Both the position numbers and the translations under genes were made by a program. Shown one piece after another: positions 27,199-62,434 of a stretch of DNA of 64,000 nucleotides. The notes beneath the pieces are model-generated. The model was not told the DNA's origin, searched no databases, and saw nothing but the letters and a program-made list of their open reading frames with translations. The DNA is from Romanomermis culicivorax. Lineage: Eukaryota; Nematoda; Enoplea; Mermithida; Mermithidae. The stretch spans positions 930,001 to 994,000 of the forward strand of contig CAWUHX010000071.1 of the NCBI GenBank assembly GCA_963922205.1, written 5' to 3'. Positions within the stretch are counted from its first letter, which is position 1. Each line of letters opens with the position of its first letter.

Positions 27199-27655
27199 TT
27201 TTTTATTTTAAAATAACTCTGCAGTTGCTTAAATTGGACAAATCTCTTTGCAAAACACATAAACTATGGTTTACTCTATATAGACGCAATTGAACGGTTA
27301 CTGTAGTTTATGTGCGTAAGTTTTAGCACAATAAACTTGCGTATATGGGTCACAAAACGGTGCATCTGTCAGCTTCATGGCTATTATAATCAATTAATTT
27401 ACTTTTAAACGGCAGTCGCGGGGCTTGACATGAAACTTTCACGGGTCAGGGAACTTTCTACTAGCGAAGAGGCCAAATTATTTGGATTTTTGATTTGGAG
27501 AAACTGTGTGGCATTTCACAGTTCTACAAATTCCGACGATTTTATCAAGTTAAAGGACTTATGGCTGTCTCTTTGGGCAAGAAAATTTTTCTTATTGACT
27601 ACAGTAATAAGCTTACTCGTTTTTCTGTGTTCAACTTGCATTCATCAGTTCACTG

Positions 27656-28255
27656 TGTCAGGGATGGACATAGTCTATCTCCAGGTTGTGAAGAAATAGC
27701 CAAAGTCGACGCGTTTTGCGCCGACGCCGATTTGCATAGACACCGTGCATAAATATGCCGGTCGTCTATGTTTTTGGTCATTCATTGATTATTGTTTTAT
27801 TTTATAATAAAGAAGAAATCGGCGGCCCAGTAGGGCATTATATTGTATTATTTTGTTATATTATTTGTGGTGGAGCACTTCGGCCTTAAATACAACGACC
27901 CGCGGCCGACAGCCTTTGGATTTCTCGCAGCGGAGGGAACGCAGGTTAGACCCCGGATATCTGGAGAGCCACCCAGCGTGCAAGTCTACATTTACAACTC
28001 GGTTCTCGGCCTGACTTCTGATTTTGCCCCTGGTTTGAAGTTACTTGAGCTCAGGGTGTTATCTTATCTTCTGCAGTTCTTCGGGACGAAAGCAGGAGAC
28101 CTTTGTTGATTTGGAGACTGACCGAACTGTTGCGAACTGATTCTACCTAAGGTTTCGGCCTGATTAGGTGAATTAGCTAGTGACTGATCAGGTCTATTTT
28201 TGGTATCAAATCCTTTATTTATATTTCTCAACTTCCACCAAGTCTCATTTCAACA
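27656..28255 (+). repeat. 5' LTR of element 1
   Basis: 600 bp, starting TGTCAGGG and ending TTTCAACA. A TATA-like CATAAATATG lies at 27748-27757 and an AATAAA at 27806-27811. The four differences from the 3' LTR are near 27727 (C/G), 28082 (C/G), 28133 (G/A) and 28246 (T/C). Confidence 0.95.
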
Positions 28256-28257
28256 AG

Positions 28258-28273
28258 TGGTGGCTTCTGACTC
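28258..28273 (+). promoter_or_regulatory. Putative tRNA primer binding site of element 1
   Basis: Two bases after the LTR the sequence reads TGGTGGCTTCTGACTC. A TGG start close to the LTR is what a site pairing with a tRNA CCA end should show. I cannot match the rest to a tRNA from memory. Confidence 0.5.
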
Positions 28274-28353
28274 TCAAAGTAACGGAAAATCTGAGGCAAA
28301 CTCGAGGAGTCAAAAAACCTATTGGTTTTTATAGAGAACTGGGAGGTTACAAA

Positions 28354-30520
28354 ATGAGTAAAGACAACCTAGGTGGCCTCAAGAGTTCCGGTTTGCCCCG
28401 AACACCACCGGGAAAAAAGGCCCGTGATACAGAAAAGTTAATTGTCTTAACTTCAGCTGAAACTTCAGCTGAAGAGGACAATTGCTCAGATCACAGGCCT
28501 TTATCGGTGGAAAATGAAGGCAACCGACCTACGACCTCGACAGCTGTCGAGAGGGAGGACGACGACGCGATATTATCGGCCAACGAAGATCAAATTTTTA
28601 AAATTCCATCATCGATGAACCTCCCGAAGAGAGGCGAATATTTACATCCGCCTATTATGGGACCGGCGCATCCGTTACCGAAGATGAACATTCAGGTTTT
28701 GGATCAACAGCAGCGCTGGCCGATTAATAAACCGGCCCAGTTATTCGACACATACCATCAATTATATTGGGACAATGAGCGGGAAGAACACCGCGAAAAT
28801 CCTCGAAAGAGCTCATTAGAGGACAAATTGGACCAGATCATGAACAGGTTAGATGTTTATGATAGCATATTCGCCAACATTGCTAATACAGGTTCACAGA
28901 AAGCCAGTAAGGCAAATGAACCGAGGCAAAGCAATGCTGGCCGTTTGGAACAAGGTGGTGCATTGAAGTTTGAGCAGGGCCAGGAAGAGTTAGCGTGGCA
29001 AAATGATGGCATCACTCTTCAGCAAGACTGTAGACGGAAAAACTAAAAGTCAAGTCTCTGTCCTAAAGAGCAGTATATGTCTCATTTGCCCACTACCTCA
29101 AAAGTGGAGCAGAGAGTGAGTAGTTGTGGTTTTGACGAAGGCCTAAAAAACCCAAGTCTGATAAATCCAACTATCTCACAACAGAGCAGTTGTATTAGGG
29201 GAGAGACCCCAAGTGTCAGGCAGCAGGTCATGCCTACAATGATTCCGATTGATCCAGCCTTATGGGTCAATCCGGCTCAAGTAGGCCCAACTGTCTATGA
29301 CATTGAAAGGGCGATCAAACCGAAATTACTGCAATCTGATATGCCAAGTAAACAGGTTCTTGCTTTTCTAGTAGAGCTAGAAGGTGAGTTTCGTAAGAAT
29401 ACTCCCGATGAGGTGAAACTAGAAGCATTAACCCGTTTGTCAAGGGACTTGCCGAAAGAATTGGCCGAAGAGTCAACAACATATAGGGAGGCCCGAGACA
29501 AGATTTTGAACTATTGCGCTCCAGATTGTAACCTGGACATGCTCAAACGGGATTTATTGGATATTAAGCAGGAACCCGATGAAGCAGCAACCAAATTTCT
29601 AAAAAGGGTTTGAGCACATGTGAATCTCGTTTATCAGAGTGAAACAAAAGAGTTTAAAAATAAAGTAATCATTGAAACCTTTTTCTATAGGAGTTCTTTG
29701 ACTTATCAATTAGAACTGCAGAAAGACATAGCAAAATTCAAAAATTGGTATGATCTTTCGCAGGCAGTCTATGAGATAGAGTTAAAGTACCGGAATGCGA
29801 TTAGAACATTTGGGCCAAGAGAACAGCCCATGATGATAAATACGGCACAAGCGGAAATTGCTGAGGAGCAGCAAGCCGATGTGAATGTAATTCAAAGACC
29901 TTATGAAAGCGCCCAAAAACGCAATAGGGACTTTAGAAGACCAAACACAGAAAGGAAAACTCCAATGCAATCTTCGCAAAATCAATTGATAGATATAGCA
30001 GATGATGAAGTACTTGAAGTACCTCCGCAACAGGCCATAATGCCTCGGCAACAGCCTGTTGAGGAGCCAAAAAAGGACTCCCTCATGGTGGCTTTATCTA
30101 AGGAGTTTATCAAAATGGCACAATGTTATGAAGAGATTAGGAACTCGACCAAAGCTCAAGAGGAAGCCATAACTGCTTTAACTCAGAAAGTTGATAAAGC
30201 GAAAGCGAAAAGTCAACCAGAGGTTCAGCAGCGAAAATGGTGTACTTACCACGAAAATAACACTCACAACATGATTGATTGTAGAACCTTGAATTTTTAT
30301 AAAGGTCTGCAAAATCGTGGAAGGGGTGGAAATAGTGGAAGAGGCTTTGGAAGAGGAAGTCCTAGAGGAAGTTTTGGAAATTTCCGAGGTAGAGGAAATT
30401 TCAGAGGTAATTTCAGAGGAAATTACGGAGGAAGTAGAGGAGGTTTTGGTAACGAAGGCGAAAGGGGAGCTTATCAAGTTTCGTTTCCTGATGACGAGGC
30501 GGAAAATTTGCAAGAATATG
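28354..30520 (+). pseudogene. gag: Element 1 gag (capsid and nucleocapsid), two in-frame stops
   Basis: Gag makes the particle and packages the element RNA. The likely start is the ATG at 28354 (MSKDNLGGLKSSG). The same frame runs on through TAA at 29044-29046 and TGA at 29611-29613 into pol. A charged N-terminal part is followed by a retrotransposon-gag capsid-like helical region on both sides of the second stop (FLVELEGEFRKNTPDEVKLE, then NWYDLSQAVYEIELKYRN). The nucleocapsid has one unusual zinc knuckle with spacing C-x2-H-x4-H-x4-C (CTYHENNTHNMIDC, 30241-30282) and then a Gly/Arg-rich RG/RGG stretch (about 30310-30465). There is no separate frame for pol, so a Gag-Pol fusion without frameshift is expected. 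The end with respect to protease is approximate. Both stops could derive from CAA and CGA by C-to-T changes. Confidence 0.8.
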
Positions 30521-33500
30521 CCGAGTTTCAGGAATACGTAAAGTTGAAGAAGCTCAGGGAGCAGATGAGATTGCTACAGGCTACCACCCAGCTGATGTTA
30601 CCAGGACCAAATCTAATGGACCAACAACCAGTAATCGCAAATCAGAGTTCAAATACCCTGTTGGTTCCGCAAAAGGTAGTTAGTCCGTCGCAAGCCTCCG
30701 AGCAGACAGACCAACCACCGACTAGTGGTGTCAATAGTGTACAGCAAGAACCAATGATGGAGATGAAGTTGTGCGGTTTACACAATTGTGCCATGGAGAA
30801 AGAAGAAAATGTGCCAGAAATGGAATGCAGTGCCGAGTATGGTAGAAAGGCAACTGCAGAGGAACTGGATATGTTAGCAAGATATCCTAGAACACAGCCA
30901 TTTCACATTAAAGTAACTGTGTGTTCTACTACTGCAAAGGCACTGATTGACACAGGAGCTCAGTGTTCGGTGATGTCGGGTGATTTCTTGAAAAAATCAC
31001 TTGGACTGGAGTATACAGCGTACCCTAAGATCCTAAAAGTCACTGTCGCCAATGGTAAAGTAGTTAGTGCACATGGGTACGTTCAATTTCAAATGCAATG
31101 TGACTATGGCCGTTTTCCAGTTAAAGCTATCATAATACTAGGGTCCGCAGAAGATTTGATATTGGGAACAGACTTCCTGGCGCATCCGGAAGTCAATATG
31201 GTAATAGATTTCAGAAAAGGTTCAATGACTGTGATGGGTGTGAAGAAAAGTATTGATTTGTTAACATCTGATAAGAAAGCAATTCCAATAGTTGGGATGC
31301 ATAATCCGATGATAGCAGAATCAATACAAGAAAATTCTATTGAAGAAGATCAATGTTCGACAATTGAGCAACTGGAAGATCTAGTTCCAGTAGTGGCCTG
31401 TAATAGAATTTACATTCCACATGGAACAGATCAGCTAGTGAAAGCTAAGTTGTGGAATAAATCCTCGGCAAATAGAGTAAATGGAATCATCGTAGAAGGA
31501 GATGATTCAGAAACAAGATTCAGAATAGATGATACTATAGTTGACGGTTCAAAGGAGGACTTTGTATTGATGATCTCCAATAATACGGGTTCCGGTTGCC
31601 TGATAGAACCTAATCAAGTTCTTGGCTACTGTAACTCCGTATTTCGGGGAGAATCAAGTGTATCAATTTTGCAAGCAGGAAATAGTGGAGAAAGTAGCCT
31701 AGAGGGCATTTTCGATGCCAAGGAATCAAAATTCGATGGAGTTGTGTTTCTGGAAGCATTGTACAAAATGACCTCTAAAGCTACAGTGTCAGAGGAACAG
31801 AAAGAGATGGCGATACGGCAACGCGTGAACTACCGGGATGTATTTAGCCTACCTCATGATCCCCTGACAACTACTCCCCATCTTACTTGTAAAATTAATA
31901 CAGGTGATGCTAGCCCTGTGGCGAAACATTACTACAGAGCTGCCATTGAACGTCGACCATATATCAGACAACATGTGCAGGAAATGCTAGACAAAGGAGT
32001 CATAGAGCCATCAAGATCGCCCTGGGCGGCGCCATTATTCCTAGTAGGAAAGAAAGATGGGTCGCTCAGGCCGGTTGTTGATTTCAGAGGCTTGAATGAG
32101 GTTACGAAGGATGATCGATATCCAATACCAAGAATGGATGATTATCTGGACTGCCTCGGGAGAGCAAAATTTTATACAACTCTTGACCTTAAGTCTGGTT
32201 ATTGGCAAGTGCCAATGGAAGAAGGCAGTAAAGAAAAGACTGCTTTCCTGTGTCAAGAAGGGTTGTTTCAGTTCAAAGTAATGCCCTTTGGACTGAAAAA
32301 TGCACCAGCCGAGTTCCAGAGGATGATGGAAAGAATCCTTCATCCTCATGTGTGGAAGATATGTCTAGTTTACATAGACAATATCATAGTGTTCTCGAAT
32401 ACATTCGAGGAACACATAGAAAATTTGAAATTGGTCCTAGATGCTCTGAGATGAGTCCAGCTCACACTTAAACCGGAAAAATGCGAATTCCTACCAAAGA
32501 AGGTACATTTTCTTGGTCATATCTTGGATTCCAACGGAATTTCGCCCGATCCGAAAAAAATGCAAGCTATTAAGGAGTTTGAATTCCCGGACTCGGTCAA
32601 GCGTATGCAAAGGTTTCTCGGAATGCTCCAGTGGTGTAAAAAATTTATACCACATCTGGCAAAGCATGCAGAACCTTTGTATAAGCTGACGGCCAAGAAA
32701 AGGAATAAATGGCTCGTCACAGAGGATCATTACAAAGCATTTAATGCTTTGAAAGAAGCACTGGTATCGGTTCCATTTCTTAGGTACCCAGTAATGGATG
32801 GCTCAGCCCAATTCATTCTACAAACCGATGCCAGTGGAACAGCATTAGGGGCTGTTCTGTATCAAGAATCTGGAGATGACAAGTGGGTCATAGCATACAA
32901 TAGCCGTGTGCTAAAAGAGGACGAGAAAAAGTGGTGCGCAACCGAAAGGGAGTGCCTCGCGATTATCTACGGCCTCAAAATCTATCGGCACTATTTATTG
33001 GGGCAGAAAGTATTGATTAAGACAGATCACAGACCACTGTTATCAATGAAAGTCAATACTACAACAAATGACAAATTGAAACGGTGGTATGCGATCATAA
33101 ATCAATACAACCACAAGTTAGAATATGTGCCCCGTAGACAAAATGCTATGGCTGACTTTCTCTCTAGAAAGGATTAGCCAGAGGATGTGGTGAAATCACC
33201 ACCGAAGTGGGAAAGTATGTTCAAGTCGGATGTTGTTTCCTCCGATGTCAAAGGAATAATAAAAGAACAACAAGAACAACAACAAATTTCCTTGGTGGCC
33301 GAGAGGAACAACATCCCCGAAAAGAATAAATCCCACAAGGATAAAAAGGAAGGAGAGGATGCTCGAATTAGTCCTGAGGACGAAAGAGAGCATTCTAAAG
33401 GAGTAGAAGCGGTGGTAACCCGAAGCAAAGCTTGTGTTTCGGAAAAGGTGCAGAAAGAAAATCAGGAAACTGATAAATCTGCGATACCTAAGAAACAAGA

Positions 33501-34905
33501 CAACGTGCAGTGGTTACACCGTAGAAAGGAGGAGGAATTTGATAAACCAGGAACATCAGGAGAAAAAGAGATATCTATTGGCCTGATCCCAGATGACTTG
33601 ATGAGCAAACTGCAAAAAGCAGACGAAAGCTTAAAGCCAATCTGGGATAGATTATGTGCAAATAGCACCGCAAAGTATCACACTGGGTTCTACGAAGAAA
33701 ATGGTGTATTGTATAGGGAAACTGAGGCAGGAAGCGAAGACCAATTGGTCGTACCCGCAAACCTCAGGGACTCTGTACTGCATCAGCATCATGGTGCTGT
33801 AATAATGACACACCAGGGTTTCAAAAGAACTCTGAGTGTCATGAAATTGCACTATTGGTGGCCTGGCATGGAAAAGGATGTCAGGGAATGGATAAAATAC
33901 TGCGTTGTCTGTCAAATGGCAACTGCAGGAAAGCCATCCATTCCTCTGTTGATACCCATTGTGCCACAAGGTCCATTCGACATTGTATCTGTGGATATAG
34001 TAGGAATTTCGCCTTTGGGAGAAAGAATGCCTTATGTTATAGTTTTTCAGGACTATTTCACGAAATGGGTTGAAGCTGAGATGATCCCAGATCAATCAGC
34101 AAATTCAGTTGTGAATGCGTTCTTAGAAGCTATAATATTTAGGCATGGAACACCAACGAAACTCCTAAGTGACAATGGATCTTGTTTTACTTCGGATTTA
34201 ATGAAATCAGTCTGTGATTTATTAGAGTCCAAGAAGATCTTCACTACTGCTTACCACCCTCAGGGTAATGGTATGGTAGAGAGGTTCAACCAAACTCTAA
34301 TAAAACAACTGAGAAAAGTAGCTATCGGTGAACCCGATAGCTGGCCAAGATATCTCAAATCAGTGGTCTTTGCCTACAATGCTACCCGACACGCAGTGAC
34401 GAAGGCCTCGCCATTTGCGTTGTTACGGGGCCATGAGGCAAAGTTCGGGATGAATTTGTCAAAAGCCCTTAAAATAGTGATGCCCATGAATTATGAGGCA
34501 TACAAATTCATCCTAACAGACCACTTAACCAGGCTTTATGGTATTATTGCCGAAAATATCCAGAAAGCAGCGGAAGCTAGCAAAAGATATTTCGACAAGA
34601 AAATTAAAACCTCGGTTTTTAAAGAAAATGATTGGGTACTTCTTAAAGTTGATAAGCAAAAGAAACTAGGCTTAACTTGGGAAGGACCCTTCATTATAAC
34701 TGATGTTTCCAGGTTAGAAGATAATGTCATAACAATTGCACGTTATGATAATCTTTTGCTACGGCAAAAGGTTTCAGCAAGTAGGCTGAAAATTTTTCGC
34801 TACGAGACTACACGATGGCAGAACTACGTAAAAAATCGATCGAATTGTCTTACTGTACCTTCGCAATTAGCCGAGAGTAGTGCGACGCCCGGTGTAGTTT
34901 CGTAG
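30521..34905 (+). pseudogene. pol: Element 1 pol: protease, reverse transcriptase, RNase H, integrase
   Basis: The frame of gag continues through all pol domains. Protease: DTG at 30949-30957 (ALIDTGAQCSVMS) and the flap/C-terminal motif LILGTDFL. Reverse transcriptase: PWAAPLFLVGKKDGSLRPVVDFRGLN, MPFGLKNAPAEFQ, and YIDN at 32371-32382 where YxDD is expected. A TGA at 32452-32454 interrupts the thumb just before the LTLKPEKCEF block. RNase H: FILQTDASGTALGAVLYQ, ATERECLAI, TDHRPL. A TAG at 33175-33177 follows (LSRKD). Integrase: an H-H-C-C zinc finger (HHGAVIMTHQGF ... YCVVCQ) and catalytic D (VDIVG, 33994), D (SDNGSCF, 34171) and E (MVERFN, 34279), giving D-35-E. The C-terminal part (WEGPFIITDV) resembles the GPY/F module. 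This copy cannot make active full-length Pol unless the stops are read through, and the Asn in YIDN argues against active reverse transcriptase. Confidence 0.92.
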
Positions 34906-36079
34906 CGGCAAAATCTGCCGATTTGCGTGTGTTTATTTTGTATATTTAATAAATATTTATTCCAATTGTGTTTTGTAATGGTTAAAATCCGTTTTCATAT
35001 TTTTTGATATGTAGGATTGTGTTTTAACGAAGCGGGGGAAAAGCTTTTAAAGCGAAAGACCCGTTTTCATACAATTTTTCATTTTACAACTTCTTGGTTA
35101 ACACTTCAAAATCATTCAAAACTTTCAAAAGTCGTGTCCCGCATCTGCTCTTATTTTTCAAATCTTTTTCGAAAATATTGAACGGAAGAACCCTCCCGTG
35201 AGGTAATTTGCAGCCGCAAGGGAATAGACTGTAAATGTTTTATACATCTGTCTACTTTTCACAGCTGCAAATCCGGTTTTAAAAATTTTAAAATTATTTT
35301 GGTGCAAAGAATCGGGCCCAGAAAATTTTTCGAATGGGTACGCCGAAGGAGTGTACTCGGACGTACAACGCGACGGACGACGAAGTCCAGTTTGGGGAGT
35401 CGCACCCGTGGCAGAAAAATCGATATTTTTTGGTCGATGGTAAGCAATAATTTTATATTTGTAAATAGTTAGGTAAGAAAATGAGCGGAGGTTACGCTCG
35501 TCAGGGGTGTTTTGTAAGACTGTTTCTGTGCCCTTTCTCGGACGAGCTACCAACTGGGAGTTGAGAATTAAACACAAAAAATTAGGTAGAAGAGGGTGGC
35601 AAGGGCCGAACCTAGGTGATTCGAAAAAGACTTTGGTCGAATTAGGTGATCCGATTAGGGGAGGTTTTTTGTCATTCCCGCTCCCTCTGGTTTCTGCAAA
35701 GCGGCGAAGAAGGGGATTAGCAGGAGTTAGTCGCGGAGATCAAGGTTGTGATCGATTAAGCGCTGATCGAGTAGCAAGAGTGTGTTGGGTTAGAGTGAAA
35801 AAACACCTAATTTCACATATTTTTGCCTATCAATTTTGGTATCTATAAAGGGACACCCAACGGCCAGAAAGGCTAAAAATCAAGTTCCCGCTCCAAAAAT
35901 TTCAAAAGTTTCAAAAGTTAAAACGGTGTTCTGCACAAAGGTGCTAGAGTTTTCCCCGAAGGTTAAAGGAGTAATAGTGGGTAAAATTACCCAAAGAGTG
36001 TAAAAAGGGTCACGAAAATGCACATAAGGAGTTAGTAGAGTATGTCTGTCTAAAATTTAAATCTCTCCTGGATTTTTAG
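34906..36079 (+). other. Spacer between pol and exonuclease ORF: poly(A) signal, purine tract, possible intron
   Basis: No protein is supported in this 1.1-kb stretch. AATAAA lies at 34948-34953, just after the pol stop. A purine tract AAGCGGGGGAAAAG lies at about 35032-35045 and looks like a polypurine tract. A good donor AG|GTAAGA at 35472/35473 and a nematode-like acceptor ATTTTTAG at 36079 could bound a 607-bp leader intron for the downstream mRNA. The open frame around 35507-35848 has no family resemblance and I do not call it. Confidence 0.5.
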
Positions 36080-36099
36080 ACCACAATATCCGTCGGGCA

Positions 36100-37794
36100 A
36101 TGCGGATAGCGGAGTTGGAAAGGTGGTTTTTTGCCACTTTTGAGTTCTGGCCGACCAACCCTATCGAGCCGATAATTGTTCCCATGGGAAGTGTGGAAAA
36201 GGTGGTAAAACACCTAGAAAGCAGCACTTTCCGAGGCATGAACATTGTCGGCTTCGATGTAGAGAAGGTGAACCGCAAGGACGCTAGAAAGCTGTTTAGG
36301 TGGGGGTTCGAAAACGAAAAAGGCAACCAGTTTGCCAGATTAGTTTCGTTCGCCCATCTAAATGGCAAAACGTTCGTAATCGACTTAACGTTGCTGCAAG
36401 AGCAAGAGTGGAACATCTTGTTAGACTTTTTACGCTCAGCGACGTTGTTAGTCGGTTACGCCATTTTAGAAGATATAGTTTCAATTGTCAATGTCCGTGG
36501 ATGCCGAAAAAGCACCGATGGTCGCGATTTGTCTGACGCGATTAGATGTAGTATCAAAGATGGAAATCTCGGAAGATACTATGATCTAAGCGTCACGGCA
36601 AAGCAGATCATGGGAAGCGAGATTACCAAATCCAGGAAAGCAGGTATCTGCCCTGAGACATTGAAGTTGAAAGGCCTCTTTGCCGAAATGTATTTGGCTG
36701 ACATCGGTCCTCACCAGACTGATTTCAGTCTTTTATGTAATAGACAAAGTGTTGCCAAAAAAAGAGTTCCTGAAGAGATACTGCAGTATGCTGGTATGGA
36801 TGCGTACTTTTCATTGGCAATTTTTATGGGGGCATTTCACTATGGGTATGTGATTGAGCTATGTGGGGGAGTTGCCAACTTTCCTCACGATATAGTCGAT
36901 CCATCCCAGATTGAAATTCTTTCATATAAATTTTATCAGTTTTACTCATATATAGTTACCGACTATAAACTACGTAACTTTGTGGGTACACTTGATATTG
37001 TGGTTAGGCAGCCTGAGGCCACCTACCACATGATGCGCCAAGAAACCACACAAGTGCAAGAAATAGGGCCTAATTTTCGTTGCCATCGGGACATCTGCAA
37101 TCCTAGGAAAGGGAAAGAAAATTTGCCGTGGCGAGGCATCTATCCAAGTGCTTATCGTCAGGGTAAAAAATTAAAGCCCAGTTCCTATGATGAAGCAAGT
37201 GATTCTGACGACGACGAAATGATTAGGCCTGAACAGCGCTTGTCGGCCAAGGATAGGTTGCGCCTACAGTTAGTAGAGGAGATGGCGCAGGGAAAGCAGT
37301 ATCATGAACTCACTCAACCAGCGTCTTTAGTTTGGTTCATTGACACAGCAAGGAAAGTTGTCAAACTACCCCAAGATCGTCAAAAGCAAGCACTACTAGA
37401 TGCCCTAAAAAAGCATCTGGTTCATGTGCCTATTGATATTGATCCTGGGGTGGGCTATTTTGACAAAGATCACTGGAAGCCTCAGTTGGCGAAGTATGCT
37501 AAGGCATTTGAGGAAAAGCGGTTCTCAGAACTGCAAGCCGCTTGTGCCTTAGTCCCGCTGGCCTTTCATGTGATCTGGCCCCATAGCAGAAAGGAACTGG
37601 ACTTTGTAATGGCCGAAATGTTTAGTTACAGGTTCATTACATCGTTCAGCCCAGAACTACAGGGCAAGATAAAAGAAATGGCTTGGCGGTCAGACGAAAG
37701 GTTGTCCCATTATCTTTTGTTGGCGAAAACTCTTCCAAACATAGAGTATGAGGTGCCCCGCAAAGGTGCTGGAATATATGTTTGGATGAATTGA
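36100..37794 (+). CDS. Element 1 ORF3: DEDDy 3'-5' exonuclease domain protein
   Basis: This 564-residue ORF starts at ATG 36100, 20 bp after a possible splice acceptor. Residues about 45-250 have the three motifs of DEDDy exonucleases of the RNase D/WRN type: ExoI IVGFDVE (D53, E55), ExoII LVGYAILEDI (D125) and ExoIII QYAGMDAYFSLAIF (Y230, D234; Y-x3-D spacing). Such enzymes remove nucleotides from 3' ends with two metal ions bound by the four acids. Residues 300-564 (CHRDICNPRKGKENLPWRGI, an acidic SDSDDDE patch, then helical, Trp-rich sequence) match no family I know. It lies on the element's sense strand between pol and the 3' LTR, the usual place of env, with base composition like gag-pol. 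The frame continues after TGA 37792-37794 into ORF4. Catalytic residues are intact, so activity is plausible; substrate and role are unknown. Confidence 0.8.
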   Translation: MRIAELERWFFATFEFWPTNPIEPIIVPMGSVEKVVKHLESSTFRGMNIVGFDVEKVNRKDARKLFRWGFENEKGNQFARLVSFAHLNGKTFVIDLTLLQEQEWNILLDFLRSATLLVGYAILEDIVSIVNVRGCRKSTDGRDLSDAIRCSIKDGNLGRYYDLSVTAKQIMGSEITKSRKAGICPETLKLKGLFAEMYLADIGPHQTDFSLLCNRQSVAKKRVPEEILQYAGMDAYFSLAIFMGAFHYGYVIELCGGVANFPHDIVDPSQIEILSYKFYQFYSYIVTDYKLRNFVGTLDIVVRQPEATYHMMRQETTQVQEIGPNFRCHRDICNPRKGKENLPWRGIYPSAYRQGKKLKPSSYDEASDSDDDEMIRPEQRLSAKDRLRLQLVEEMAQGKQYHELTQPASLVWFIDTARKVVKLPQDRQKQALLDALKKHLVHVPIDIDPGVGYFDKDHWKPQLAKYAKAFEEKRFSELQAACALVPLAFHVIWPHSRKELDFVMAEMFSYRFITSFSPELQGKIKEMAWRSDERLSHYLLLAKTLPNIEYEVPRKGAGIYVWMN

Positions 37795-37803
37795 TTCGGA
37801 TTT

Positions 37804-40157
37804 ATGCCGATTCGATTAAGATTATGGAAGAATGCTGATGTGTGCGCGCCGATCCCTGGCAGCCCTGACACAATAACTATGGACAGTAAGAGCTATAGCT
37901 CAAATCCATATTATTATGTTAGGTTCTACCATATCGAGCTTGCACAAAGGACGCCTTCATTAAGATATGGGGTAACCTGGCAAACCAAAATCGACAAGGT
38001 TGGAGATGTCTATGGGTCATTGGCTGAAAATAGGGAGTATACTATAGCCTTCCCTGAAAAGATCTTTGACTATAGACCTCTGGCCTCGGATTTACCAGGA
38101 ATTCAGCACAAATTTAGTTATAAGACGGGTGAAGGTACTGTCACCAAATTAGCTGGCAAGATTAGTCCCACCAAGACTGATAGTCTGAAAGGTGAGGACA
38201 AACAGCAAGCTGAAGTAGGTGTAGTTGAATTTCTGATACTTTCAGGTCAGGAAGTCCAAATGTTGGAAAGCGAAATCTTCAGCGATGCAGTGGGACTGCC
38301 GGCTGAGGATGAATCGCAAGACCAAGGACTTGATGATGAGGACGTGACTGAACTGTCGGAAGAAGAGCAGCAGCAAGAGCAATCGGTTCCGGCAACGGAA
38401 CTGATGCAAGCTCAAACTGCTCAGACGCAGTCTGAACTCAACAACCAGCGTCGATTAGAGGTTATTCAAAGATGGAAGAGGAGGCAAAGGAAAGGATTCG
38501 ACTCCAACGCGAACTAATGGAGGAAGAATTGGCGAAGAATGCAGCGATTTACAACAAAAAACTTCGTCAAATGGCAATTCAATTCGGACTCCAAAAGGAC
38601 GATACGGCAGCGCCCGAAATGGAAGCGAAAGTAGCCCTATTAGAGCCACCATCGCCGATGAAGGTAGATGACGATATGGCCTCCGATAAGCTCGTTATTG
38701 ACGAAACGAAAGCGGAAAGGCCCGAATCAGAGATGACGGAGAGCAAGGAGGTAATAGCATTCTCTGCTGATGGGGGTGTTCCAGGTTTGTATTCAGCCAA
38801 AGTCGTTCAGAGTATGAGAGAAAAGGGTTGGAAGGACGAGAAAATATTATTTATGGCTGAAAGGAAGAAGAAAATGAGAGTGAAGGAGAAGGAAAGGATG
38901 AAGAAGGGTATCAAGGGAGCAAAAGCAGAAGAGAAAGAGGAAGACAGTAAGATGGGGACTTCGTCCGTCATATCGACCTCAACTTCTAGGATTACCTCCA
39001 CTGCTACCCCCACTTCTCAAATTACTTCTACCTCAACTGGAACACCGTCATTGGCTACATCTTCAGTGGCAACTGCAACTCAGGATAGTACATCCAAAAC
39101 TAGTCAAACTTCAGGCGCAATAGGCCTTGCGATGGGGAAACCAATGCCGAAAGGTCAGGCAAAACCCAGCAAGGACCAAAAACCAGGAGTGGCAGCTAGT
39201 CAAGTGCAAGTGGCTGGTCCTAGTAAAATTAAGCAGGCACAGGCTGCTCAGGCAACTGAAATGCTGGAAGTGACTGCGGAAAAATTCAAGGACAGTCTCT
39301 TGGACTTCTGGGATGTCTATCAACCAAAAGCCAGAGAATCTGGACCAATATCATATTTTACGAGTGCAGTGGCCAAATATTTTGACTTTGAGCAATTCGA
39401 GTCAGAAAGGGTTTTCTTCATGGTAAATGATGCCGTTAGGGAAATCTACCGGGATTACGAACAACAGTTCAGAATCCAGGGAGCTTTTCTCTATGATCGG
39501 ACCAATTTACCAGAAGAGCTCTGGGAAAGAGTCATGTATGACTTTCTCCCCAGGTGGCTCAAGACGGAGAGAGCACCTGATGCGTTTTCCTCGGTCAGGT
39601 ATTTGGTTATGATGCTATTCCTCGTGTTGGAATGCGCCCCGCTATCCCCGATGCATATTGGAAACATTTATGCCAGGGCGATGGTGGCGGCGAATAACCA
39701 ACTGTTGAGGGTGTATAATAACCACGATACCCCCTTGGAATACAAAACGGCCTTTTGATCTGTGATGCTTAGTAGCAATCATCAGGTCGGAGTGATGGGA
39801 GCCAAAAGAAGCGCCAGTTCAGACTTACAAAGCTCTGTTAAGTTCAGTAAAGCTCAAGACGGAAAAACTGGTGCTACTTTGAAGGTTCCCGGACCTCAAG
39901 GCCAGGGTCAAGGCCAAGGAAGCCAGGAAATAGCTCCGAGTAAGCAAGGAAAGGTGCAAAAGACTGGTAACCACGGCCGAGGCCAGTTTCAGTTCCACAA
40001 CCCCAACAGGGGTGGTCATGGAGCAGTGCGTGGCAGAAGTGCCGCGCCTCAGGTGCAAGGTAGAGGAGGCCAGCAGGGCCAATGGGTATGGAGACCTTAC
40101 GGAGGTCGTGGAGGAGCCCATAGAGGGGCGCAAGGAGGCGGCGGGCCGCAACAGTAA
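37804..40157 (+). pseudogene. Element 1 ORF4: coiled-coil and RGG-tail protein, frameshifted
   Basis: This region is read in two frames. 37804-38517 (frame of ORF3) encodes a beta-rich-looking part ([20 protein letters not shown]) and a Glu/Gln-rich coil. 38472-39758 continues one frame back with a Glu/Lys/Arg helix ([19 protein letters not shown]), a Ser/Thr-rich linker (about 38950-39110) and a globular helical segment ([20 protein letters not shown]). After TGA 39756-39758 the same frame runs on through 39762-40157 as a basic Gly/Gln-rich tail with RGG and RG motifs ([19 protein letters not shown]). The 46-bp overlap with the coil continuing in both frames suggests a single-base indel near 38470 in one ancestral ORF; a programmed -1 shift is less likely because I see no slippery heptamer. 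The tail suggests RNA or DNA binding. I recognise no family for the globular part. Confidence 0.6.
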
Positions 40158-40983
40158 TTTAGCCGCATAATTTTTGGCCAGAAAATATTGTTTTCGCATT
40201 TATTTTTCACAAAAACCACAAAATAAAAAAAAAAAATATAAAACCACAAAATACAAAAAAAAATATAAAATACAAAATACAAAAAAAAAATTTTTCTTAT
40301 TTGTTGCGTGCTTTAAAATTTCTATTTGTTTTTTCGTACCTCGCATTGCCAAAATGGGCATGTACAAAATTTATTTTTTCACTTAATCTCGGTTATTATC
40401 TCGCCTTATTTTTCTTTTTTTTTCTTTGCTCAATCGATACACCGGGATTTGATTTTTTTTGTGATACTCGTACTAATGTACATATTTTGTAGTTTATTTA
40501 GATATAATAGAAAATCTTTTTTGGTGAGGGCAACGTTGGAAAAAAGGCAGAAACTTCACGGCGAAACACGCAACCGGAAAGAGATACACAGACAAATGTT
40601 CTGTCCCTGGCGTCCAGCGTAAAGCACGAAACGAAAGGTCACGGGATGGACGGCAACCGAAGACCCTCGGCCCTGGTTCAGGTCAAATTGGATTCGGCGG
40701 TACGCCAACAAAGTCAAGCCGACGCGGAGTCGTTGATCCCTCGGCGTCCAGACCAAGAGGTAGCGCACCCGGACGGCCTTGTGGACATTCCGGTATGCCT
40801 GGTAAAAGACTTGACGTAAGAGGGTGGTCATTCGGAAAGCTTTCTGCAAGGGGGCATGAATGACCAAAAAGGTTCAGAAAACTGCTTTGACTGTATTAGG
40901 GCCTGAAAAGGTTCCAAAATTGTCATTGCGGCGTAATATGAATCTTTTTAACCTCCCGTTGGTCAGTTTCGAGGCTCGAGGGA
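40158..40983 (+). other. 3' untranslated region of element 1
   Basis: It begins with an A-rich low-complexity stretch (about 40200-40300, AAAACCACAAAATA units) and continues with a T-rich part and then a GC-richer part (40500-40980). The expected polypurine tract before the 3' LTR is poor: only GAGGGA at about 40978-40983. No coding sequence is supported. Confidence 0.5.
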
Positions 40984-41583
40984 TGTCAGGGATGGACATA
41001 GTCTATCTCCAGGTTGTGAAGAAATAGCCAAAGTCGACGCGTTTTGCGCCGACGCGGATTTGCATAGACACCGTGCATAAATATGCCGGTCGTCTATGTT
41101 TTTGGTCATTCATTGATTATTGTTTTATTTTATAATAAAGAAGAAATCGGCGGCCCAGTAGGGCATTATATTGTATTATTTTGTTATATTATTTGTGGTG
41201 GAGCACTTCGGCCTTAAATACAACGACCCGCGGCCGACAGCCTTTGGATTTCTCGCAGCGGAGGGAACGCAGGTTAGACCCCGGATATCTGGAGAGCCAC
41301 CCAGCGTGCAAGTCTACATTTACAACTCGGTTCTCGGCCTGACTTCTGATTTTGCCCCTGGTTTGAAGTTACTTGAGCTCAGGGTGTTATCTTATCTTCT
41401 GCAGTTCTTGGGGACGAAAGCAGGAGACCTTTGTTGATTTGGAGACTGACCGAACTGTTGCAAACTGATTCTACCTAAGGTTTCGGCCTGATTAGGTGAA
41501 TTAGCTAGTGACTGATCAGGTCTATTTTTGGTATCAAATCCTTTATTTATATTTCTCAACTTCCACCAAGTCCCATTTCAACA
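40984..41583 (+). repeat. 3' LTR of element 1
   Basis: 600 bp, aligned without gaps to the 5' LTR, with four substitutions. AATAAA lies at 41134-41139. It is followed by the ACTG target duplication. Confidence 0.95.
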
Positions 41584-41587
41584 ACTG

Positions 41588-44246: not shown

Positions 44247-47200
44247 ATGGTCAAAATCGATTATTTCGACATCCAGTTCGATTCGAAAGCAAAAGTTTTC
44301 TATGCCGGGCAGCAAATCAGTGGCGCTGTTATAGCCGGTATAGAAAATCCAATCAAAGTTTTGAGTATCGAAATTCGCGTCATCGGTATGTAATAAAAAG
44401 GGTTCCCAAATGCATGCATGCAAAATGCAAAATATCAGCACTGTTGTAAAAACCGATATTCCGAGAGAATGACACCTTTAAATTCTAATTCCAAGGTCCT
44501 AATGGACGCATGATTCTTATTTTTAGAGGCATCCTGTATGCCCATTGCTTATATGTAGTTTTTTTTTAAACTTCCTGTTGATTTCTTTGGACAGGTGAAG
44601 CCAGGACGTCGTGGATAAACAAAACATCGGACAAGATTTTCGAAAATAGCAGCACTTATTTAAAGGAAGTTTTCGCGTCGCCTTATTTGCATAAGATCAG
44701 CGATGGCGAATTGATGCCCAGCGGAGTTCATACTGTACCATTCTCTTTCACTTTGCCCGATAATTTGCCGGCCAGTTTCGACGGCGAATACGGCTACGTC
44801 AGGTACGCAAGTTTTCAGAAAAATTGAAAAATCGCCTACATATAGTCTGTATTTCTTAAAATGATTCCAAATTGTTTACTCGGAAAGCAACAGTATATTT
44901 AATCTTTTTGTTATTTTCGTCCGAGCCATACGTCGTACGGAATTGAAATTTGGTGAGACTACTCAATTCACAAGTTTTTTGAGAAAAAATCTCAAGAAAA
45001 AAGACCTTCTGTAAACGACTTTCAAGTCTAGTCGATTTAGTATACTGCATTCATTTTGAAATAATCGAGGTGGCAGACAAAATTTTACATAAAATTGTTG
45101 AAGGATCGTTGATTTTATATGATAATTTTGTTCCTTCATGATACCGGCGCTTTGATGATCGCTCTTTTCAAGCATTTCAAGATTGTAGAAATTGGTTTCC
45201 TGATCTCTAGTAAGGCTGCGTTTTTTGAAATTCCGATCGTTGCATCGATTATTTCAAAATGGATGGAGTATAGTCCAGTTAACTATAGTGTGGCACTTTA
45301 GAGCTGTTCTTCGATTGTTGTAATAGTCATTTTAAAAAAATGCTGGAGTTAATTGTCAGTTATATTAAAAAGAAATCACTATTAATGTTATCTACACTAG
45401 TAAATCGATTAATGTTTATGAAACCGGATCCAGTGCAATATTTTTGACTGTTCCCAAAAAATTTAAACCCAAATCAAAATACGAACACTACCCAAACAAA
45501 ATAATTTAGTGTTTTTCTACAGTACAAAGTTTTCTGTTTTGTGAAAATTAAGGATCAAATTGAACTCACTTTTTTGGTTTTCGCTGCGTTCATCATTTTA
45601 AAGTAATGGACTATAGTATAATTTTGCTATCAAAGGCGAAAGACCGAAACCTCAGATCTGCTCTGGTTACTGTAAGATACCATTTTTAGTCGGGCCGTTT
45701 CTTTTTAATCACCCTTTATATTCCTTCATTATGCAACAGTTAAAAAGTAGCAAGAGTTATAGTCTGTTCTTGAAATGTTTGCAAACGCTAAGAGTGGGAA
45801 AGCAAGTACTATTTTATATTATTACAATTTCCTGCAGAACCATACGTCGCATATAAATTTGCGAGCCTACTCAACTAACCCTTGCCATTTTTGAGCAAGA
45901 AGTTCTACTGTAAAAAACTTATGTAAACGACCTTGCTAGGGTAGTTTTTTTTATTTTTCAATTTACAAGCATTTTGTAAAAAGAGACCATAGTAAAGTCG
46001 TTATAACCGTTTTAACAAAGCTTTATTGTAGAATTTTTTATTTAAAAACTGTTAGAGACTAGTTGAGCATGCTTACAAATTTCCACTTCCATGCGACGTT
46101 TGTTCTAGCAGAAAATCGTAAAAACGTGAAACAGTACTTACTCCCCGATTTTATGATTCAAAAGCATTCCAAGAAAAAAAGACTATTGATTATGAATTCA
46201 AAATTTCATATTCAAAACGCTTGATGAAGATTCTTTCGTCTTTTTTTATGAGTTTCACTGAAAAGTCTTGTATATGATAAACACACACTATTCAAATAAA
46301 TAAACTTATGAGTTCACAAGTATGATTAATGCAACTACTTTTTCGACTTATATTTAGATCACAAATTCGTATTTTTTCCAGGTATAGAGTTATCGCTGTC
46401 GTGACTTTGAGTGCCGAAGACGCCTGCCTGTTGACCGCCTTGACCGCACATTGTGGCCAAGAATTGATGTGTGAGTCTTCCTTCTACGTTCTGTCGATCG
46501 TCGACCAACGCCAAGCCGGCGCCTATTACCCGGAAAACGCCTTGTGCACGGAAGCTTGTTTCGACGTCTACGGCTGCTTTTCGTGTTGGTCCAAAGGACA
46601 AATAGAAGCTTCTTTGACAATTGCCAAGTGATTTTCATAAATTTTATTCTAATTAAATTGACATTTTGCGTCACGCTTGTGAATTTTTGTGTGGAGATGC
46701 ATGTTTGTAGAATTTGCCACTTATAGCAGATGTGAGTATTCCAGTGGTTTTGAAAAAATTGGATGACATTTTTATGTTCTTCCACTCCTACACTTCATAT
46801 TTTCAAGTGAGACGTGGAATGCAGAATAACAAAAATATAACCTACATTCGGGGACACCCTTTTTCGCAAATCAATTGCAGCAGACAGACTAAAACTTGAG
46901 CTTCAGAAAAACTCCTGCTTCCAGGTATAGGATTCCTACATGACCCTACAACTAAGCAGATGGTCATCTTCTTCACATCAGTTATGGTTGAATTTTCAGG
47001 GCTTAAATTTCGATGGAAACTATAAATCTAGAAATGTTGTTTAGTGTTTCCAAAATCGTGCATGAAATTCCCATAATTGATAAGTGATTGCAGACGTTCA
47101 CGGTTTCAAAAAATTTTTCTTTAGAACTGGATACACAATCGGCGAAACTATCCACGCCGACATCAAAGTGCACAACAAATCGACCGGCAAGAAGGTGCCC

Positions 47201-47539
47201 ATCCTGTTGGAATTGGTCCAAGAAGCCTTGTTCAAATCCATGAGCCGATACGAAAACGTCTACGACCACAAAACGCACAGTCGTACTATCGAAAACGCCC
47301 AAACGGCGCCAGTCGACCCGGGAAGGACGTCGGACGTTTCGTTGGCTTTGCCGTTGAATACGACGTTGACGCCTACGAGCGTTGGCGACAATTTGATTAT
47401 CAACGTAACGTACAAAATTCGCCTCTATTTGGGAGAACATTATGTCATTTGCACGCCCGTTTTCATAGCTACAGTAAATTCAACGCCTTCTGAAGCGGCG
47501 TCCAAATTGGCCGATGATTCGAACGTTCCTACTGTATGA
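44247..47539 (+). CDS. Arrestin-domain protein (ARRDC/alpha-arrestin type), four exons
   Basis: Exons by eye: 44247-44385, 44595-44802, 46382-46627, 47125-47539; phases join and give 335 residues plus stop. Alpha-arrestins are adaptors that link membrane proteins to ubiquitin ligases and endocytic sorting. The N-terminal arrestin fold is seen in the start IDYFDIQFDSKAKVFYAGQQ, ISGAVIAG, ISDGELMPSGVHTVPFSFTL and FDGEYGYVRYRVIAVV. The C-terminal fold begins with a Cys-rich CFDVYGCFSCWSKGQIEASL and TGYTIGETIHADIKVHNKST, and ends VTYKIRLYLGEHYVICTPVF. No PPxY motif is visible in the short C-terminus, which most alpha-arrestins carry for ligase binding, so this may be one of the tail-less worm ARRD types. 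Donors and acceptors are all GT-AG. Intron 2 (1.58 kb) contains repeat copies. Confidence 0.85.
45246..45612 (+). repeat. Interspersed inverted-repeat family 1, copy D
   Basis: The right end (TTTTCGCTGCGTTCATCATTTTAAAG) matches the right ends of copies A and B. The left end (ATTATTTCAAAATGGATGGAGTATAG) is the inverted left terminus. A separate terminus-like segment (ACTGCATTCATTTTGAAATAATCG) lies at about 45042-45070. The copy lies in the arrestin-type intron 2. Confidence 0.5.
45755..46190. repeat. Two adjacent family 3 elements
   Basis: At about 45765-45990 the sequence runs from TATAGTCTGTTCTTGAAATG to GTAAAAAGAGACCATAGTAA. A second copy follows from about 45990 (TCGTTATAACCGTTTTAACAAAGC) to AAGAAAAAAAGACTATTGAT at 46185. 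Both are in intron 2 of the arrestin-type gene. Confidence 0.5.
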
Positions 47540-55380: not shown

Positions 55381-57192
<1,812 letters not shown>

Positions 57193-58661: not shown

Positions 58662-59960
58662 TCACTTTCTTGTCCATAAGTTATATGTATGCTGATTTTG
58701 ACGATCTTGTGTACGATCTGACATCAAATTTTCGTCCATTGCTTTATTCTCTTTTTCATTCGAATTCACCAAAGGTACATTTTCTTCTTTTCGATTTTCT
58801 TGATCATGACGTCCAACAAACGGTCGAGAACAATTGGCATGAATGGTCTCCAAGTCAGTCGAACTGTTAGGATTTTCAATGAAAAGATTGGGGTACTTTA
58901 TATTGACAATTTTGTAAGGGCCTTGAAAAATAGGCTGTAACTTTTTAGCTTGGTTTTTGCGAATCATTTGGGATTCCTTCCAAACGTAGTCACCAATTTT
59001 GTATATGATATTATTTTCATTTTTATCACACATTTGCTTATATTTTTCTTGAGCTTTCAGGACTTGATCTTGGTTAATGGTTTATGCTTGTGTGAAATGT
59101 TTTTTGACTTCTAAATGATAATCATCAAGGTCAATAAAGCAGATTGACGGGTTAAAGTTAAGGGCAGCATCTATCGGAAGTTTTGGTAAACGACCATACA
59201 TTAGTTGAAAGGGTGAATGATTAGTGCTAGCATTGATATGGATATTGGTTGCAAAAATAGCATATGATAAATGCTGGTCCCAATCTGCATGGTTGCCATT
59301 CTGAATGTACATTCGGATTCGGGTAATTAAGGTTTGATTGGCATGCTCAACTTCTCCATTAGCTATGGGGTGATAAGCTGAGGTATGTATTTTTCTTATT
59401 TTAATAAGTTGAGTGATTTCGGTCATGAGCTTTGATGTAAAATCTGTCCCTTGATCGGACTGTAAAATGCTTGGAGCTCCATGACGACAAACTATGTGAT
59501 TTACAAAAAGTTGTGCTATAGTATTAGCTGTGATATCAGGTGTTGCGAATGCTTCAATATACTTTGTAAAATAGTCGATAAAAACAACGATAAAACGATT
59601 TCCTTGTTGGGTCAGTGGTAAGGGACCCATACAGTCTACAGCAATTTTTTCAAAAGGTCCATCGATTGGGATTGGTTTTAATGAAGCTTTAATCTTTTTC
59701 CGCATTGGTTTATTTTTCTGGCAGATTGTACAGGTTTTACAATAATTTGTTATATCTTTCGTTAAGGTTTGCCAAAAATATCATTTTTCAATTAACTGTA
59801 TGATCTTCTTTGAACCAAAATGTCCTGCTAGTTCATCATCATGATGAGTTTGGATGACTAAGTTTATCAATGATGTGAGAATTACGATTTTATGAATATC
59901 ATTCTCGATTTTATATAATATGTTATTTTTGAGCAGATAAGTTGGGAAAGCATCACTTTC
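58662..59960 (-). pseudogene. pol: Element 2 integrase, two in-frame stops
   Basis: The integrase joins the element DNA into the genome. The zinc finger (HHDDELAGHFG ... YCKTCTICQKN, about 59720-59850) is interrupted by TGA at 59781-59783 just before YFWQTL. The catalytic core (59705-59082) has VDCMGPLPL, SDQGTDF and NGEVEHANQTL; all three acids are present, although the family usually has ER where this has EH. TAA at 59082-59084 separates the C-terminal part (59033-58662), which stays in frame and has the GPY/F motif (FQGPYKIVNIKYPNLF). Confidence 0.82.
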
Positions 59961-60871
59961 TTCTCTTCCTTCACCAAATTATGTGATTATTGATATCAAG
60001 AGTTCGTCATTTCTCTGCTAATTTTCCAAGTCAATTTGTTCTTCAGAGATGGGGTTGATGTTAAACTCATATTGTTTTGTTTCTTGTGGACGTACAATGT
60101 CATCAATTTCTATATCAAATACAGGTTTAGCTGTTGGATCAGGGAGTCTTGAGAACGTGTCTGCATTGGAATTAGCATGTCCTTTTCTGGGCTGAATGTT
60201 CAATTTTGTACCTGCTAATGCTAGTCCCCAGCAAATTATACGTTTATTAGGGTTTGATTTTTCCAAAACTGATTCTATAGCCGTATGATTGGTTTGAATG
60301 GTAACTTCTTGTTGATAAAGATATGGGTGGAAATACTTTACAAATTCTATGACTGCTAAAGTTTCAAGTTCAGTGATCGGATAATTTTTCTCTGCTGGTT
60401 TTAAAGTTCTGCTTGCAAAAGCAACAGGGTGCTCTTTAGTATTAGAATCAATTTGAGTGAGAACAGCTCCTATACCTTCTCTGGATGCATCAGTTTGTAG
60501 AATGAATGGTTTTGTGAAATCCGGATGGTTCAGAATTGGTGGATTAATTAGTTTACTTTTCAGGTTTTCAAAAGCTGTCATTTGTCTTTCCCCCATGCAA
60601 ATTTTGCATTCTTTTTCAAGAGTTCAGTCAAAGGTTGAGAGATTTGAGCACAGTTTGGTATAAACTTTCTATAATACAATATAAGACCTAGGAATGATTT
60701 TACTTCTTTTACCATTTTGGGTGCCTGAATAATTTTCACAGCTTGGATTTTCGAGTCATCTGGGCTAATGCCTTTAGCTGATATTTTGTAACCAAGATAT
60801 TTGACTTCTTGAAAGCTAAATCTACATTTGTTAAGACGTAATTTCATTCCACCTTGCTGTAAACGATCCAA
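59961..60871 (-). pseudogene. pol: Element 2 RNase H and reverse transcriptase thumb/connection, frameshifted
   Basis: 60871-60578 encodes the RT thumb (LRLNKCRFSFQEVKYLGYKI, VKSFLGLILYYRKFIPN). The frame is lost near 60590, inside the FAWG motif, and regained in the overlapping frame 60596-60018, which has the RNase H motifs FILQTDASREGIGAVLTQ, ELETLAVIEF and QTNHTAIESV. TAG at 60018-60020 and TAA at 59979-59981 follow in the connector to integrase. Confidence 0.8.
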
Positions 60872-61540
60872 AAGTGCTTCAGGTCAGAAAGCATTTGATT
60901 GTGTGATTTGGAAAATATGAGAATGTCGTCAAGGTAGACTAGACATGTGGACCATTGTAAACCAGATAAAAGTAGGTCCATTAACCTCTGAAAAGTGGCA
61001 GGCGCATTACACAAACTAAAGGGTAGGTAATTAAATTAATATAGACCAGTTGGGGTCAAAAACGCTGTTTTTTCTTGGTCCTGAGGTGCGATAGGAATGG
61101 ACCAATATGCATTGGCTTGGTCTATGGTTGTAAAGTACAACATGCCATTTAGTGTGTCTAGGATGTCGTCGATTTTGGGTAAGGGGTACACATTCTTTTT
61201 TGTCACTTCGTTTAAACCACGAAAATCAATGCATAATCAGTATCCACCATCTTTCTTTGGTACCAAAACTGAGTTGGTAGACCATGGTGAAGTACTTTTT
61301 TGTATGATATGTTTAGCTTCCATGGCTTTTACTTCATTTGTGATAATTTCTTTCTCCTTCGGAGATGTTCGGAAAGGATACTTTCTGATAGGTTTGTGAT
61401 CAGCAGTGTTAATTTCATGTTGAACTAATGTAGTTTTTCCTGTGTCTTTTTCATCAAGTGCATATAAATGAGGATAGTGCAATAGTAAATCAAAAAGTTT
61501 GTTTTTGTCTGGTTCATTCAAATGAAGTGAAACATTACAA
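60872..61540 (-). pseudogene. pol: Element 2 reverse transcriptase fingers and palm, interrupted
   Basis: The fingers read SPWSTNSVLVPKKDGGY, then TGA at 61237-61239 in place of the conserved Arg before LCIDFRGLN. TAA at 61036-61038 lies where Gln is usual before FNYLPFSLCNAPATFQ. The palm active site is intact as CLVYLDDILIFS (near 60925-60955). A frameshift near 60890 precedes the thumb. Confidence 0.82.
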
Positions 61541-62278: not shown

Positions 62279-62434
62279 TGGTGTTCTTTTCTGTGAATTT
62301 ATGCAAAGATTTATCGATTCTTCTATATCTACCTTATTTTTAACTTTGTTGAAACGAATGTTAAATTTGGATGAAGAAGGATGTTCCATTTTATTTTTTG
62401 TTTTTGTTTGGATTTTGGACATTTCTAAAAAAGC

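Follow-up and report, generated by a model that had tools for sequence, protein, structure and literature searches.

The stretch of DNA considered here (the window) comprises 64,000 nucleotides of the forward strand of contig CAWUHX010000071.1 (positions 930,001 to 994,000) in the GenBank assembly GCA_963922205.1 of Romanomermis culicivorax, a mermithid nematode that parasitizes mosquito larvae. It harbors, at 27656–41583, a young Ty3/gypsy retrotransposon with long terminal repeats (LTRs), in which an open reading frame (ORF) of 564 codons (36100–37794, + strand) lies between the integrase and the 3′ LTR. An earlier note on this DNA, made from the letters of the sequence, had pointed out in this ORF the five residues typical of DEDDy exonucleases, and all are there: D53 (36256), E55 (36262), D125 (36472), Y230 (36787) and D234 (36799), within a domain at 36217–36849 (+). 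All five are kept in each of the 31 copies read (30 fetched from the genome plus that in the window). The 564 codons are the truncated length of a longer frame, ORF3, whose N-terminal ~260 residues are identified by their sequence as a predicted DEDDy 3′–5′ exonuclease domain in which no residue of the catalytic set is missing.

The comparison with profile models that the earlier note had proposed turned out positive in part: PF01612 was recovered with the window protein directly, at 16.2 bits (E = 0.0097), which is below the cut-off of 23.6 bits, and it was matched by all ten members of alignment A1 at E ≤ 1 (best E = 0.0076). The window domain can be placed in this family because it aligns over 233 amino acids, spanning ExoI to ExoIII and with 61.6 bits, with the domain of another element of the same genome (L060, family 4), which itself scores above the threshold of PF01612 (33.3 bits, E = 5.5e-8); the presence of a DEDDy-type exonuclease inside an LTR element is thereby borne out. 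Another relative, L064, is 43.6% identical to the window domain and retains ExoI, ExoII and ExoIII, as does a further one with 26% identity. Genome-wide E-values between L060 and the group of L064 are near 1e-14, in a search in which the best 150 of 2256 candidates were scored, and neither L064 nor L065 has a Pfam match. The D-x-E of ExoI is also present in L064, L065, L060, L058 and L049 (the sequence of L055 begins past ExoI), the Asp of ExoII is invariant in the seven rows of alignment A5, and in ExoIII the Asp is found in 7/7 and the Tyr in 6/7 rows, the family-3 sequence L058 having Ser in the Tyr column. The order of the motifs from ExoI to ExoIII is the same across the aligned relatives.

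When a profile of ten element exonucleases was compared with solved structures, the best-scoring relative was a mut-7 homologue (7jw2, E = 5.4e-5), with the DEDDy exonuclease WRN at E = 9.2e-5; both matches span ~60 positions around ExoIII. MUT-7, Nibbler and EXD3 are the products of cellular genes that act on small RNAs, and the element exonuclease presumably resembles them in its ExoII and ExoIII motifs as well. The WRN exonuclease is fused to a helicase and functions in DNA repair. With the 564-residue ORF as query, phmmer against the PDB gave chance matches only (ferritin and others, E ≥ 0.5), MUT-7, Nibbler and EXD3 not being reached; PHROGs and NCBIfam contained nothing relevant to the ORF, and viral contigs scanned with peptide patterns gave no match. 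Two structure models were of low confidence: Foldseek found no related fold for the first (predicted local distance difference test score 44.0) and no match at E ≤ 0.001 for the second, whose weak structural matches were mostly DNA polymerase chains, with mut-7/Nibbler also matched weakly, and whose 50 listed matches include neither RNase D nor WRN, an absence that is uninformative.

In a search of a protein database, the 564-residue ORF had a single match, at 68% over 184 amino acids, to a fragment from R. culicivorax that is rearranged, and the whole 1357-residue ORF3 had none among 7990 scored candidates. Profile A4 gave 23 matches at E ≤ 0.01 among 7999 scored, and 23/23 come from R. culicivorax, in a word-based search that could leave relatives in other organisms unreached. 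Five of these 23 UniProt entries bear the name ‘3′-5′ exonuclease domain-containing protein’. Their counterparts are the ORF3 families of the elements; probably they are themselves ORFs or fragments of transposons and not host genes, a warning for the annotation of R. culicivorax, in which entries of that name are probably transposon-derived.

In the window copy, ORF3 is broken by a stop after codon 564 and by a frame change further on. The length given in the earlier note is correct for this copy, but the full ORF3 is open over 1357 codons in 19 of the 31 copies. Its first part (36100–37794, +) holds the exonuclease domain and about 300 further residues and is ended in the window copy by the stop; the middle part (37795–38517, +) has the same frame and is continuous with the exonuclease in intact copies; and the last part (38436–40157, +), which stands in another frame in the window copy, comprises a charged stretch, a Ser/Thr-rich stretch, a conserved C-terminal part and an RGG-rich tail. 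An intact ORF3 thus has the exonuclease at its N-terminus and the RGG-rich tail at its other end.

The LTRs that enclose these frames (27656–28255 and 40984–41583, both +) are direct-repeat partners with four mismatches over 601 aligned bp (99.33% identity), flanked by a target-site duplication, ACTG, that was read from the flanks (left copy 27652–27655, right copy 41584–41587). The 5′ LTR starts with TGTCAG and finishes with TTTCAACA, its end being placed at CAACA from the flanks. The TG..CA LTR ends and the 4-bp duplication are those of a Ty3/gypsy element, as is the order of the Pfam domains: protease (PR), reverse transcriptase (RT), RNase H (RH) and integrase (IN). Gag and pol occupy a single reading frame (28177–34905, +), which contains four in-frame stops in the window (29044, 29611, 32452 and 33175) and is open over 2237–2240 codons (stop to stop) in five of ten fetched copies. 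Within it lie an aspartyl protease (30910–31185, +; PF13975, E = 1.1e-9), a reverse transcriptase that is partial, being cut by a stop (32047–32448, +; PF00078, E = 4.5e-27), RNase H (32719–33108, +; PF17917, E = 2.2e-32, and PF17919, E = 9e-29) and an integrase with H2C2 zinc domain and rve core (33751–34260, +; PF17921, E = 4.2e-19, and PF00665, E = 3.1e-13). The integrase-bearing ORF itself (33187–34905) is upstream of the exonuclease ORF. No dUTPase between PR and RT is among the Pfam matches at E ≤ 1 in the 944-residue ORF that spans both. A possible tRNA primer-binding site, AGTGGTGGCTTCTGACTC, is situated just inside the 5′ LTR (28256–28275, +) and is common to seven of eight copies compared.

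ORF3 starts ~1.2 kb 3′ of the end of pol. A candidate exon 1 of 35 codons and one base (35334–35439, +), 0.4 kb 3′ of pol, is in phase with the exonuclease ORF, as read from the alignment, and would be joined to it across a candidate intron of 640 bp (35440–36079, +; G/GTAAGC ... TTTTTAG), both ends of which are present in 11/11 copies. The candidate intron contains 14 indel tracts, compared with none in the 106 bp of candidate exon 1 in any of the 11 aligned copies and two in the 358 bp behind pol. A second acceptor-like site, TTTTCACAG, ending at 35264, also occurs in all 11. The copies used for this comparison are ~95% identical, which makes conservation by itself weak evidence, and the division of ORF3 into exon and intron is offered tentatively. 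A leader splice donor common to the copies was not found among the GT[AG]AG sites, the one type considered, from 27656 to 29100; a trans-spliced leader, an internal promoter or a donor that went unseen may each account for ORF3 expression. As its start lies 1.2 kb behind pol and is accompanied by splice-like sites, ORF3 is not fused to the reverse transcriptase.

Searches of the R. culicivorax assembly (359,112,060 bases in 595 contigs) indicate that ORF3 is not a one-off insertion in this family, a point on which the earlier note had made its claim depend. With the ORF as query, all 77 scored matches cover the whole ORF or all but one residue at 95–100% identity, and seven contain an internal stop; because 77 of 3553 candidates were scored, this number is a lower bound, and a query made of ORF3 is blind to copies that lack it. 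The ten copies fetched with flanks all have the pol frame upstream of ORF3 and an LTR downstream, and in eight the upstream LTR also falls within the fetched piece. The LTR pairs of these eight are 97.7–100% identical, and the window family has therefore been mobile recently.

Selection on ORF3 was assessed in these copies. Among the 19 intact ones, polymorphisms shared by at least two copies have a ratio of nonsynonymous to synonymous changes, relative to neutral, of 0.17 in ORF3, 0.13 in the exonuclease and 0.02 in codons 1061–1357, so that the strongest constraint is found in the C-terminal part with the RGG tail and not in the exonuclease. Singletons gave 0.33 for ORF3 and 0.46 for the exonuclease; a value as low as the latter was reached in 59 of 1000 simulations and is not clearly lower than neutrality would give. 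Codons 570–800 are weakly constrained (0.43 shared, 0.53 singleton). Such a contrast between shared and singleton changes would be expected if most singletons arose by decay once a copy had inserted. Picking stop-free copies biases slightly toward constraint; over all 31 copies, the exonuclease values are 0.16 (shared) and 0.50 (singleton). Pairwise ratios of nonsynonymous to synonymous substitution rates (dN/dS) among five fully intact copies are 0.09 for the exonuclease, 0.04 for the C-terminus, 0.12 for ORF3 and 0.11 for pol, whereas the broken window copy compared with the same five gives ~0.19–0.29. Ten pairs of family-2 domains have dN/dS of 0.03–0.12, although dS is saturated in some of them, and a single pair from family 4 has 0.07. 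The exonuclease is under purifying selection, as the earlier note had suggested checking, and is about as constrained as pol. Given this constraint, the several divergent lineages that carry the domain and the many intact copies, the exonuclease is very likely used.

Four divergent exonuclease groups sit directly behind gypsy integrases in this one genome. Beyond the window family (family 1), an integrase was seen upstream of the exonuclease at the two family-2 loci, the one family-3 locus and the two family-4 loci examined: in family 2 the integrase (PF17921, E = 1.1e-5) is followed by a 608-codon frame holding the exonuclease; at the family-3 locus it is directly upstream (39.5% to family 2); and in family 4 a broken RT and an integrase precede the exonuclease at one locus and an integrase at the other. 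A comparison of families 1 and 2 for a shared C-terminal domain was negative (hhalign E = 0.38). A search with the family-2 integrase, in which 75 rows were listed and 74 of 5961 candidates scored, so that the counts are lower bounds, gave 43 rows in which PF01612 is matched on the same strand at under 4 kb downstream (median distance 607 bp); these correspond to 42 distinct exonuclease matches, as one place has two rows, and the control (wrong strand or upstream) gave 0. At least 42 of 116 PF01612 matches are thus preceded by integrases of this kind, a count that takes in the surroundings of few of the others. The remaining 32 of the 75 rows are without a recognizable exonuclease within 4 kb downstream; 29 of them have 58–60% identity to the query, as do some of the rows that possess the exonuclease, and open frames of more than 1900 amino acids occur in 11 of the 32 as against none of the 43. 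This hints at a separate (sister) lineage in which the exonuclease was lost or replaced or was never present, provided that no divergent ORF escaped the search.

The trees of integrases and of exonucleases both split families 1 and 4 from families 2 and 3, with 100% ultrafast bootstrap; each is an unrooted tree of seven sequences with long branches, made of element sequences and none that is cellular. This agreement fits an old co-inheritance of the exonuclease with the integrase better than a fresh capture, and is suggestive without amounting to proof; the origin from a captured cellular exonuclease put forward in the earlier note is possible. On contig C158, three PF01612 matches of equal length and score (182213, 187991 and 193769, +) follow one another at intervals of exactly 5778 bp and appear to mark a tandem array that includes part of an exonuclease.

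The earlier note knew of no retrotransposon family with this layout, a claim that does not hold. In the sections available of Rodriguez, Kenefick and Arkhipova (2017; PMC5408684), DEDDy ORF3s are described behind pol in the Juno and Vesta LTR elements of bdelloid rotifers, the gain being independent at least twice, and DEDDy ORFs are reported in Athena/Terminon as well. The same sections give, for a test on clones of env- and GDSL-type ORFs, no significant departure from neutrality within one genome, and state this result generally for their ORF3s. They also propose 3′-end processing of element RNAs, state that Maelstrom and EXD1 use the domain without catalytic importance (RNA or particle binding), and name an envelope-type protein or envelope replacement as a possibility for ORF3. 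The layout is thus already known from rotifers; what is new is its occurrence in a nematode, how many lineages and copies share it within a single genome, the length of ORF3 and the constraint that was measured. The likeness to Juno and Vesta is one of layout and comprises gag, pol (PR–RT–RH–IN), a DEDDy ORF3 behind pol, more than one lineage, and recent copies with near-identical LTRs. By contrast, no dUTPase was found between PR and RT of the R. culicivorax element, which resides in a nematode and has an ORF3 of 1357 codons with an RGG tail, many intact copies and measured purifying selection on the exonuclease.

Other parallels are looser. Athena/Terminon giant Penelope-like elements share the DEDDy 3′-exonuclease as an accessory gene of a retroelement but, according to the part of PMC6431247 available, belong to another class, which is telomere-associated and not of the LTR type. 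Plant Ty3/gypsy elements are reported to carry accessory enzyme domains, for instance an N6-methyladenosine demethylase in orchids; here too an enzyme was gained by a gypsy element, but enzyme and host are unrelated to the present ones (PMC9289625, available in part). For DnaQ-like exonucleases of LTR elements, PMC6338049 refers to a further paper of 2017; the text of PMC5348765, taken for that paper, is without the terms exonuclease, DnaQ or DEDD. ‘Exonuclease’ is likewise absent from the main text, as available, of both R. culicivorax genome papers (PMC3890508 and PMC10879605), and a nematode or mermithid case of an exonuclease-bearing LTR element was not found in the open-access literature.

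These observations are probably best explained by a recently mobile nematode Ty3/gypsy element with a long second ORF that includes a DEDDy exonuclease directed at RNA, perhaps against silencing. ORF3 would be made from its own spliced or trans-spliced RNA, separately from Gag-Pol; the RGG-rich end would bind RNA and so deliver the exonuclease to the RNA of the element or to small RNAs that pair with that RNA; and the exonuclease would there trim or degrade 3′ ends. RNA is most likely the target, since separate expression, the RGG tail and the closeness to mut-7/Nibbler all make it the likelier substrate. Resistance to small-RNA silencing may be the likeliest single benefit, at somewhat less than even chances; processing of the element's own RNA or complementary DNA (cDNA) ends would rank behind it. 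A wider and more speculative account, which we consider rather improbable as a whole, would have the ORF3 exonucleases act as counter-silencing enzymes: a MUT-7/WRN-like DEDDy nuclease would have been gained by one ancient gypsy pool before the lineages split and later fused to RNA-binding parts, and selection would have kept it in at least four integrase lineages since it removes or trims silencing small RNAs, as the arms-race counterpart of the host's MUT-7-type nuclease. Rotifer and nematode elements may, on that account, share the pool.

The strongest competitor to an RNA-directed, possibly counter-silencing enzyme is a replication helper: by removing non-templated additions or primer remnants from the 3′ ends of element cDNA or genomic RNA, or by proofreading reverse transcription, the exonuclease would supply integrase with correct ends. 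DEDD domains do proofread in DNA polymerases, chains of DNA polymerases make up most of the weak structural matches to the second model, and the constraint on the exonuclease is close to that on pol. The 3′-end processing proposed for rotifer elements (PMC5408684, in the sections available) points the same way. However, ORF3 is separate from Gag-Pol and has its own candidate exons, whereas proofreading would favor fusion or equal amounts; moreover, the 32 of 75 family-2 integrase rows without a recognizable exonuclease suggest that relatives manage without it, even if some of them may hold divergent or deleted ORFs. We regard such a role as possible but doubtful. A structural protein, in which the domain would serve RNA or particle binding and catalysis would be unimportant, accords with the greater constraint on the C-terminal part with the RGG tail and has a precedent in Maelstrom and EXD1 (PMC5408684, as above), but is unlikely in view of the five catalytic residues kept in 31/31 copies and of the ExoI, ExoII and ExoIII motifs retained in relatives at 43.6% and 26% identity.

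That ORF3 might be an envelope-type protein or an envelope replacement is very unlikely. The env position of ORF3 and the mention of this possibility for rotifers (PMC5408684, as above) speak for it, and hydropathy over 19 residues does just exceed 1.6, the customary membrane limit, at two stretches, one in the exonuclease core (1.80) and one near residue 1174 (1.79). Yet a scan of a single copy (1357 residues) showed no N-glycosylation motif, no env-type Pfam match to ORF3 was obtained at E ≤ 1, and the protein has an RGG tail and an enzyme domain with an intact active site. A chance resemblance of an unrelated protein to an exonuclease is the least credible alternative of all: the sub-threshold Pfam score, the low-confidence structure models and the lack of Pfam matches for L064 and L065 would allow it, but the 61.6-bit alignment from ExoI to ExoIII with L060, itself over the PF01612 cut-off, the E-values near 1e-14 between L060 and the group of L064 (which is 43.6% identical to the window domain) and the same motif order oppose it.

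R. culicivorax can be reared in mosquito larvae, and the question of why retrotransposons carry exonucleases becomes testable in this animal. The rotifer work, in the sections available, did not settle if an element benefits from additional ORFs of the DEDDy ORF3 kind.

Elsewhere in the window, a second gypsy region (58662–63691, −) contains RNase H (60018–60620) and an integrase (59082–59777) that groups with families 2 and 3 in the tree. On the same strand and 5′ of these two domains, an ORF at 62435–63688 matches the Monjiviricetes_fusion glycoprotein (E = 1e-15); a position upstream of pol is unusual for a glycoprotein ORF, which may be that of a neighboring copy. Host-gene exons encode an arrestin C-terminal domain (47084–47536, +; E = 3.2e-11) and an astacin peptidase (55984–56430, +; E = 5.1e-28).
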